A DNA stretch of 64,000 nucleotides from Nanoarchaeota archaeon (GTDB lineage Archaea > EX4484-52 > LFW-46): contig JAHILE010000045.1 of NCBI GenBank assembly GCA_018897155.1, positions 1-64,000 on the forward strand. Direction: 5' to 3'. The first letter of the stretch is position 1. Every line of letters begins with the position of its first letter. A model generated the notes under the pieces. The model saw only the letters and a list, made by a program, of their open reading frames with translations. It was not told where the DNA came from and searched no databases. This document shows positions 14,538-16,747 of the stretch, in pieces. The position numbers and the translations under genes were made by a program.

Positions 14538-16511
14538 ATGCTCATCGGCGAAGTTTTCGGAAGCACAGGAACAAAGACTTTTAATTTCCGCGCGGAAAAG
14601 GAAGTGCGCAAACTTGATTTTGTAGTTGTTGAAGGCGAGAACAAGACCTGGGTCCTATCGCAGGTTGAAAATATTGAAAGCAGGCCTGACGGCAAGAACA
14701 TAGCATTTGCAAAAGCCATCGGATACAGGGAAGACGGAATCCTGAAAGTGCCTATGACGCCGATAAAGTCGAATGCAAGAGTCTATTCTGCAGACGCGGG
14801 CATAATTCAGGACACGCTTAAGCTTGACAAAAACGGGCTTTATCTCGGTTGCCTTGATGCGAACAAGGAAGTGCCGGTTTATATCGATCCGACAGATCTC
14901 ATCTCGCGGCATGTCGCAGTCCTTGCGGCAACAGGTTCCGGGAAATCATATACGGTTGCAGTTATTCTTGAAGAGCTTCTTGAAAAGAACATACCTATTG
15001 TTATAATAGATCCCCACGGAGAGCACACCTCTTTAGGGGTTGCAAACGATAATGCAGAAGAAATCGAGAAGGCGCAGAAATTCAACATTCTCTCAAAAAA
15101 CTATCTTGTTGTCGAATACAGCCCGGACACAAATGTCAATTCAGGTGCGCAGCAAATATCCTTTTCCGACAAGAATCTTGAAGCATCTGAAATACTTCAT
15201 CTTCTTCCGACAAAGCCGTCGTCCTCGCAGATAGGTGTGCTTTACAGCGCGATAAAGGAACTGAAAGAAATGGGCAAGCCGTACGAGCTAAAGGATATAA
15301 TCAAGGCAGTTGAAGACAACCAGAGCGCATCAAAATGGGCTGTTATAAACATGCTTGAAGTTGTCCGGGGCACAGGGCTTTTCTCGTCAAAGCCGACAAA
15401 TATCCGCGAGCTGGTCAAAGCAGGGCAGGCATCGATAATAAATCTGCGTGGCATAACACAGGAGATACAGACAGTTGTCGCATATAAAATTATCGAGAAG
15501 CTTTTTGAGGAACGTAAAGTTGGCCGAGTTCCGCCGATGTTTTTGGTGGTTGAAGAGGCGCATAATTTCTGCCCTGAAAAAGAAGTTCGGGCATCCTCAA
15601 AAATCATACGCACTGTTGCATCTGAAGGGAGAAAATTCGGCTTCGGCTTGTGCGTTATTTCGCAGAGGCCTGCTCGGGTTGACAAGAACGTGCTTTCACA
15701 GTGCAATACCCAGATTGTCCTTCGCATGACAAATCCGAATGACTTGAAAGCGGTTTCTTATGCAGAGGGGCTTACAAGTGGAATTGAGAAAGAGATAAAA
15801 AATCTAAATCCCGGAACAGCTTTGATTTTGGGCCGCGAATTTCCTATATTTGTGAATATCCGAATCCGAAGAACAAAGCACGGAGGCGTCACAGTCAATA
15901 TCAGCGAGCCTGTAAAAGAGGTTACTGAACTTTTAGCATTCCGGAATTACGAGAAAAAATACATCGAGAAAAAATTCGGGTCCGTTCATACGATATATTA
16001 TCCGTGCTGGCGCATATACGGCGAGAAGACCTACCTTATAGAAGCGGTGCGTGGCAAAGTGATTTTCGAGGATTCTGATGCGACAAAAGAGTGTGACATA
16101 GAGCTTAACGATGATCATGCGCTGATTCTGAGCGAAATGAAATTCAACAGGACTTTGCAGGAGCTTCTTGAGCGGACAAAATTGACTGAAGACGATCTTG
16201 TCAAGGCGCTGAAAGAATTGCGCGATAAAGGCTATGTAAATGAAAAAGAGGAGAATGAGAAATTCGTTTATGAAAAAACAGAAAAAAGCGTTTTTCGCGA
16301 CTTTGCAATAGAGCCTGCAACAATTGAAAAAGACAATAATTCAGAGACGCTGAAATTCGAGTTCACAAAAGAGGATGCTCTGAAGCGCGCGAAGCTTTTG
16401 TTTGGCGCGGTTGATAACATCGAGCCGGTCTATTATACATATTATCTTGACGAAAACCAGAAGTTCTTGATTGACGGCGTGACCGGGATAAAGAAAGAAA
16501 CCGGGAATTAG
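14538..16511 (+). CDS. HerA/DUF87-type hexameric ATPase
   Basis: HerA-family ATPases translocate DNA, typically with the NurA nuclease in end resection. The 657-residue protein has an N-terminal barrel (HAS) domain, Walker A AATGSGKSYT near residue 135, IDPHGEHTSLG, Walker B FLVVEEAHNFCP, and the FGLCVISQRPARVD sensor stretch with conserved Arg. The C-terminal 180 residues add a winged-helix-like region (LSEMKFNRTLQELLERTKLTEDDL), so it may be a paralogue rather than classical HerA. No nurA is adjacent. A TATA box centred near 14511 makes it leaderless. Confidence 0.85.
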   Translation: MLIGEVFGSTGTKTFNFRAEKEVRKLDFVVVEGENKTWVLSQVENIESRPDGKNIAFAKAIGYREDGILKVPMTPIKSNARVYSADAGIIQDTLKLDKNGLYLGCLDANKEVPVYIDPTDLISRHVAVLAATGSGKSYTVAVILEELLEKNIPIVIIDPHGEHTSLGVANDNAEEIEKAQKFNILSKNYLVVEYSPDTNVNSGAQQISFSDKNLEASEILHLLPTKPSSSQIGVLYSAIKELKEMGKPYELKDIIKAVEDNQSASKWAVINMLEVVRGTGLFSSKPTNIRELVKAGQASIINLRGITQEIQTVVAYKIIEKLFEERKVGRVPPMFLVVEEAHNFCPEKEVRASSKIIRTVASEGRKFGFGLCVISQRPARVDKNVLSQCNTQIVLRMTNPNDLKAVSYAEGLTSGIEKEIKNLNPGTALILGREFPIFVNIRIRRTKHGGVTVNISEPVKEVTELLAFRNYEKKYIEKKFGSVHTIYYPCWRIYGEKTYLIEAVRGKVIFEDSDATKECDIELNDDHALILSEMKFNRTLQELLERTKLTEDDLVKALKELRDKGYVNEKEENEKFVYEKTEKSVFRDFAIEPATIEKDNNSETLKFEFTKEDALKRAKLLFGAVDNIEPVYYTYYLDENQKFLIDGVTGIKKETGN

Positions 16512-16520
16512 AAAAACATA

Positions 16521-16701
16521 TGGACACGGCGCGATTTTCATCAGTTCTGGGTAGTTTTGCGCCTCGACGAAGTCGAGGTCGCTGGTTTTTCTCTTTATAC
16601 CCAGATTTGTTTTTCTCTTCTTCAAAAGAGAAAGAAACTGGATTTGAACGCGCGGCCTCTGCGTTGCGAACGCAGCGATCTACCAGCTGATCTACGTGCC
16701 C
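16521..16701 (-). tRNA. tRNA-Ala(CGC) with a 108-nt intron at position 59/60 in the T-loop
   Basis: Exon 1 (16701-16643) gives acceptor GGGCACG, a GATC/GATC D-stem, anticodon stem CTGCG/CGCAG with loop TTCGCAA (anticodon CGC), T-stem GCGCG and T-loop TTCAAA. Exon 2 (16534-16521) supplies T, CGCGC, the acceptor strand CGTGTCC and discriminator A; CCA is not encoded. The acceptor contains G3:U70, the alanine identity pair. Around the intron (16642-16535) is a canonical bulge-helix-bulge: helix TTCA/TGAA with 3-nt AAT bulges, each cut after the second base. A TATA-like element near 16729 predicts a start at about 16703. Confidence 0.88.
16535..16642 (-). other. Structured tRNA intron
   Basis: The 108-nt intron of tRNA-Ala contains two perfect stems: an 8-bp pair between 16598-16605 and 16546-16553 (TCTGGGTA with TACCCAGA on the minus strand), enclosing a hairpin at 16562-16578 (CCTCGAC, loop TTC, GTCGAGG). 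Near its 3' end CAGT/ACTG extends the splice-site helix. CTGATGA near the 3' end resembles a box C, but no matching box D arrangement is clear. Confidence 0.75.
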
Positions 16702-16747
16702 ACGCATAGAATTCTTTCAGAAATTATTTAAAAGGAACGTGTTGCGA

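Follow-up and report, generated by a model that had tools for sequence, protein, structure and literature searches.

The window, a stretch of 64,000 nucleotides from a Nanoarchaeota archaeon (genome G000 below), carries on its minus strand an interrupted gene for tRNA-Ala(CGC) (Table 1). The gene reads GGGCACG...GCGCGTTCAAA, followed by 108 nt and then TCGCGCCGTGTCCA, with the intron lying in the T-loop at 59/60, which is listed as a non-canonical intron position (PMC4090602). ARAGORN called the spliced 73-nt RNA as tRNA-Ala(cgc) and made no call at all on the unspliced gene, in which Rfam detected only a weak, partial tRNA (30.9 bits). Splicing restores an acceptor stem of GGGCACG/CGTGTCC that includes G3:U70, along with a T-stem of GCGCG/CGCGC. 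A chance control yielded a 3′ exon with 12/12 restoration in 0.3% of 20,000 random 250-nt stretches of the window, which is about the share of random stretches that overlap the true 3′ exon, indicating that this exon is not a chance match. The sequence-only reading of this DNA, which had described a long, structured 108-nt intron at 59/60 in an archaeal tRNA-Ala(CGC) gene, with a canonical bulge-helix-bulge (BHB) and a perfect G3:U70 tRNA after splicing, was correct, and its coordinates were exact. The Thermoproteales context in which it had placed such introns is not applicable here; the nearest named genome, LFW-46, belongs to p__EX4484-52, a DPANN lineage.

Table 1. Features at the interrupted tRNA-Ala(CGC) gene, and the EndA gene of the same genome. 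Positions are those of the window unless a contig is named.
Feature	Position	Strand	Basis or remark
TATA-like box TTTTAAATA, -24 to -32 of tRNA-Ala(CGC)	16725..16733	-	sequence; the sister gene has a similar upstream stretch
tRNA-Ala(CGC), whole interrupted gene	16701-16521	-	59-nt exon 1 + 108-nt intron at 59/60 + 14-nt exon 2
5′ exon, positions 1-59, 3′ end TTCAAA	16643..16701	-	sequence; ARAGORN on spliced RNA
BHB 5′ half: TTCA helix strand + AA/T bulge	16642..16648	-	sequence
Intron, 108 nt at 59/60, dispersed-repeat copy	16535..16642	-	
S1, pyrimidine strand CTTTCTCTTTT	16624..16634	-	three-strand register
S2, purine strand, hairpin partner of S1	16611..16621	-	register; hairpin covariation
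P3 5′ strand TCTGGGTA, within conserved ACAARTCYGGGTR block	16598..16605	-	
S3, purine strand mirroring S2 (proposed third strand)	16587..16597	-	three-strand register
P4 hairpin CCTCGAC/GTCGAGG	16562..16578	-	covariation
P3 3′ strand TACCCAGA	16546..16553	-	
BHB 3′ half: TGAA helix strand + AA/T bulge	16534..16540	-	sequence
3′ exon, T60 to A73, 14 nt including A73	16521..16534	-	sequence
Empty site behind the stop codon of the neighbor gene	16509..16520	+	LFW-46 holds an intergenic copy, G001 C48:11668-11825
EndA gene	L036:1474-2331 (G000 C48:52943-53224)	-	

The sister genome, LFW-46 (LFWA-IV; G001 below), comes from a contaminated groundwater site in Australia. Its orthologous tRNA-Ala(CGC) gene adjoins the same gene and is interrupted at the same site. 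The exons of the two genes differ by one base, exon 2 being identical, although the introns have diverged (72 of 107 aligned bases identical, ~67%), and the promoter-like box is common to both species, with the same TTTAAATAATTTCT stretch upstream of the LFW-46 gene. A second, intact tRNA-Ala(CGC) elsewhere, if joined by a lack of expression of the interrupted gene, would have spoken against the sequence-only reading; the tRNA matches obtained for this genome, which is 96% complete, include no second gene. The conservation of the exons, the common promoter-like box and the lack of another tRNA-Ala(CGC) make it very improbable that the interrupted gene is dead.

When this genome was searched by blastn with the tRNA-Ala(CGC) gene, the intron body was matched on other contigs. 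The intron proved to be a single copy of a dispersed, genus-restricted repeat of ~100 bases, which the sequence-only reading had missed, together with the copies behind stop codons and the three-strand mirror architecture. The repeat interrupts 8 of this genome's tRNA genes and 11 of those in LFW-46. Besides Ala(CGC), the genes broken in the T-loop in this genome are Ser(GCT), Leu(GAG), Asp(GTC), Ile(GAT), Thr(GGT), Pro(GGG) and Pro(CGG), the last being a reading of a multi-intron tRNA; those in LFW-46 are Ala(CGC), Asp, Ser(GCT), Ser(GGA), Pro(GGG), Pro(CGG), Pro(TGG), Leu(CAG), Leu(CAA) and a tRNA read as Arg. The tRNA-Ser(CGA) gene of LFW-46 contains the repeat body in the anticodon loop and is the sole copy at 37/38, most others being at 59/60 in the T-loop; the 37/38 intron of tRNA-Ser(CGA) in this genome has a different body. 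In tRNA-Ser(GCT) of both species, the repeat body is inverted relative to the tRNA.

Covariance models of seven bodies and of 19 cores were searched against 34 genomes of the order, which are all the genomes available for the phylum. The repeat was detected in this genome and one other, LFW-46, and the comparison of copies is thus one of two genomes, both MAGs. A repeat family spanning the order or the phylum was rejected, the weak hits outside the two genomes of the genus being chance-like. Among named genomes the repeat was found only in LFW-46, and a search of IMG/VR for viral carriage gave no exact pattern match. Unrelated low-complexity hairpins were rejected as an explanation because the copies have the conserved ACAARTCYGGGTR block and a covarying P4 hairpin, and a box C/D RNA in the intron was rejected because other copies lack the C-box-like motif seen in the Ala copy.

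Short hairpin introns unrelated to the repeat are present at 59/60 in the Gln, Arg(TCG) and Arg(CCT) genes of this genome, and in other genera of the order tRNA-Ala genes contain short T-loop introns whose bodies are likewise unrelated, indicating that 59/60 is an older hotspot. Several tRNA genes (L037:1-3801, L044 and L042) have two or three introns, located in the D-loop, the anticodon and the T-loop, and only about 13 tRNAs of this genome score strongly by Rfam. A second repeat type was observed directly 3′ of many mature tRNA ends in LFW-46 (L066-L076 and others), examples being TCTACAACC...GGGTTGGAGAGC or TTTTTTGTTTTGC...GCAAAACAAAAAAGCC.

Eight copies of the ~100-base repeat lie outside tRNA genes, on contigs C35, C23 and C6 of this genome and on contigs C13, C18, C48, C63 and C22 of LFW-46. 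In all of the copies with a sequenced left end (7/7), the first base follows without a gap on the TAA that closes an ORF of 100-657 codons, against a background in which only 8% of random TAAT have at least 60 open codons upstream; the left end of the eighth copy, on C22, is lost at the contig end. The intergenic copies lack the closing 3′ strands present in the tRNA copies, which leaves the limits of the mobile unit uncertain. The copy on C48 lies between the neighbor gene and tRNA-Ala(CGC) of LFW-46, where the window has an empty site. Among tRNA genes, Ile and Leu(GAG) are filled in this genome only, and Ser(GGA) and Pro(TGG) are filled in LFW-46 only. At the orthologous sites filled in both species (Ala, Asp, Ser(GCT), Pro(CGG) and Pro(GGG)), the S1-S2-S3 classes differ between the species, which is a sign of rapid turnover. 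Taken together, the filled and empty sites and the different classes at common sites point to gain and turnover of the repeat at the DNA level since the species split.

The BHB of tRNA-Ala(CGC) is a canonical 3-4-3 motif with a complete helix, and every T-loop copy is able to adopt the 3-4-3 form. A BHB was found in all 21 tabulated T-loop introns (18 repeat copies and 3 short hairpins); those of Ala, Asp and Gln were read by hand from sequence and the others were taken from an automatic table, and the isotypes of multi-intron genes were assigned by eye and supported in part by ARAGORN. With G-U counted as a pair, the 4-bp central helix was complete save in two repeat copies, Ile of this genome and Leu(CAA) of LFW-46, which have 3/4. 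The last bases of the intron match the exon purine 57, with TTCG/CGAA in Leu(GAG) and both Asp genes and TTCA/TGAA in most others, the exception being tRNA-Ile, in which TTCA occurs with CGAA. Genes for EndA and for the ligase RtcB are both present in this genome. We infer that the repeat-carrying tRNAs are spliced in vivo: the ends of the insert would form the BHB, EndA would cut it, RtcB would seal the exons and a normal tRNA would remain. Insertions in tRNA genes would thus survive because their BHB-forming ends allow removal by splicing.

The sequence-only reading had further held that this intron implies a splicing endonuclease of broad specificity. A T-loop intron with a canonical BHB needs no special splicing endonuclease, and the T-loop position alone therefore demands no relaxed specificity of EndA. 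The single EndA gene of this genome encodes a protein in which an extra loop occupies the ARMAN-loop position and the catalytic Lys156 is replaced. Wherever a genome of the order was hit with PF01974, it had one clear EndA gene. In the EndA of the order (L036 and L192-L217), Lys156 is changed to Ala or Ser in 27/27, Tyr115 and His125 are kept, and an insertion of 6-7 residues with a conserved FGK is located at the position of the ARMAN-specific loop; Lys156 is kept in M. jannaschii EndA and in the EndA of one genome outside the order. The EndA of the order is possibly a new type. A lysine of the ARMAN-specific loop of ARMAN-2 EndA is described as helping the cleavage of diverse introns (PMC12397907). 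Broad specificity of the present EndA is thus possible, given the insertion at the corresponding position, although the enzyme lacks Lys156; the inference of the sequence-only reading is only partly right, the canonical BHB demanding no such breadth.

The repeat body is arranged in the order S1 (pyrimidine), loop, S2 (purine), ACAARTCYGGGTR, S3 (purine) and P4 hairpin, in which both purine strands are complementary to S1, S2 in antiparallel and S3 in parallel orientation, so that S3 mirrors S2. The three strands were compared in a fixed register over 23 copies and twelve columns, giving 276 positions. S1:S2 pairing fits 260/276 positions, and S3 read parallel to S1 is complementary at 267/276 (97%), whereas the best antiparallel register reached 73% and slid parallel registers at most 59%. 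When S3 was re-paired among copies, the observed fit was reached in 0 of 20,000 trials (mean 208, sd 9.3), and the hairpin covariation was reached in 0 of 500 shuffles, although the copies form about four sequence classes, so that the covariation amounts to a handful of independent events and relatedness inflates the permutation results. Both T-A-A and C-G-G were present in 7 of the 12 columns, with the three strands changing together. In class a, the length of the terminal run of S3 tends to track that of S1 (r 0.71, permutation p 0.03). A class II intrastrand triplex would be expected to covary in just this way, with all strands switching from T-A-A to C-G-G, suggesting that S1, S2 and S3 form a triplex of this class (purine-motif). 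Nested hairpin inserts were seen at the same two points, both in the S2-S3 loop, in several copies (L038, L144, L145, L186 and L138). A P4-like hairpin, GGCGAC...GTCACC, is found in the anticodon intron of a likely tRNA-Gly (G000 C54:1108-1193, L187), which suggests that P4 itself may be a modular repeat.

The same strands could be read without a triplex, with S3 serving as an alternative Watson-Crick partner of S1 in an RNA switch between S1:S2 and S1:S3. In single copies, S3 does pair antiparallel with S1 over about 9-12 nt, but the common antiparallel register falls far behind the parallel one, and the least mirror-symmetric classes (Ile and class c) clearly follow the mirror, so such a switch is quite improbable. 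Readings of S3 as a direct repeat or as an alternative pairing were both rejected, being weaker than the mirror. Granted a third strand, it could work in RNA, where a triplex in introns and at mRNA 3′ ends would protect the RNA or compact the intron so that the splice sites meet. The copies do lie in transcribed places, within tRNA introns and directly behind stop codons, and the inverted tRNA-Ser copies would transcribe Y-Y-R, the common U.A-U type. Most copies, however, transcribe Y-R-R, and purine-motif RNA triplexes, here of A.A-U and G.G-C triplets, are disfavoured; moreover, some intergenic copies have lost S3 or contain large nested inserts. We consider a triplex acting in RNA unlikely and a triplex in DNA, either single-stranded during replication or recombination or as H-DNA, more likely.

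Our preferred account is that of a mobile, spliceable, genus-specific triplex repeat that moves at the DNA level, and we put its probability as a whole at roughly 0.68. A small DNA repeat of this kind, unstable and mobile through a folded single strand or through recombination, would enter T-loops, aided by the TTCRAAT sequence common to tRNA genes, and would enter stop-codon borders as well. The repeat could be linked to no transposase, integrase or target-site rule. Three IS200-type Y1 transposase genes were found, and an IS200/IS605 origin was provisionally set aside, the single flank read by eye having no resemblance to the repeat. In a test for MITEs, CGGTTTC...GAAACCG-like ends were present in the tRNA copies only, where they are explained by the BHB inner helix, and the AAAT repeats at the borders of the repeat are inseparable from the requirements of the BHB and the T-loop.

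Movement at the DNA level has to be weighed against an ordinary family of archaeal tRNA introns that spreads by RNA-mediated transposition of the Thermoproteales kind (reverse splicing, reverse transcription and recombination), with the Y/R-rich body as an inert hairpin. Such transposition would account for homologous introns at two positions and across many isoacceptors (Fujishima 2010, as cited in PMC4090602), as does the age of the 59/60 hotspot, with its unrelated short introns in other genera of the order. Neither the inverted copy in tRNA-Ser(GCT) nor the copies behind stop codons, which are without the 3′ splice part, are expected from reverse splicing, and a hairpin alone leaves the mirror agreement of S3 unexplained. 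RNA-mediated spread thus seems to us a minority prospect, well behind movement as DNA. A more specific form of the preferred account, which we advance tentatively and at slightly worse than even odds, is that the repeat is an archaeal counterpart of introners: a mobile non-coding triple-helix element that enters T-loops of tRNA genes and sites following stop codons, and that tRNAs tolerate since its ends supply the missing parts of a BHB, which an EndA without the classical catalytic lysine then processes.

These results bear on the origin and spread of archaeal tRNA introns. The filled and empty sites, the inverted copy, the second position and the intergenic copies in two sister genomes make models of spread directly testable. 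The three-strand covariation would be evolutionary evidence of selection on a triple helix, which is rare. The genes broken by the repeat also explain how a large share of this lineage's tRNAs escapes standard tRNA finders.

Several known systems resemble the repeat in part. The transposition of tRNA introns in Thermoproteales (Fujishima 2010, cited in PMC4090602) likewise places homologous introns in different isoacceptors and positions; the present host is a DPANN (EX4484-52) genus, and the repeat adds, relative to that account, inverted and post-stop-codon copies, empty and filled sites in two species and a three-strand core. In Caldiarchaeum, gain of an archaeal tRNA intron through a mobile DNA element has also been proposed (Sugahara et al. 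2012, PMC3293823), but that element is 1.8 kb, codes for a recombinase and is described at one tRNA-Thr locus, whereas the repeat is ~100 nt, non-coding and present in many tRNA genes. The bacterial class II intrastrand triplex repeat TM_ECO (Holder et al. 2015, PMC4666352) consists of a pyrimidine stem, a loop, a purine stem, a loop and a mirror purine stem, and has been linked to genome rearrangement. Like the archaeal repeat, it is dispersed and has Y-R-R on one strand with C-G-G and T-A-A triplets. The archaeal repeat differs in its A/T-rich stems of ~12 nt, in its second loop of about 13 nt or longer, compared with the limit of 1-6 nt in the published triplex catalogue, and in forming spliceable introns in tRNA genes, TM_ECO being described there as always intergenic. 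Introners, the mobile spliceosomal introns of eukaryotes (PMC11782384), are similar in that a dispersed element makes introns by bringing or completing splice signals; they are removed by the spliceosome, whereas the predicted splicing of the repeat is carried out on tRNA by protein enzymes, through the BHB, EndA and RtcB.
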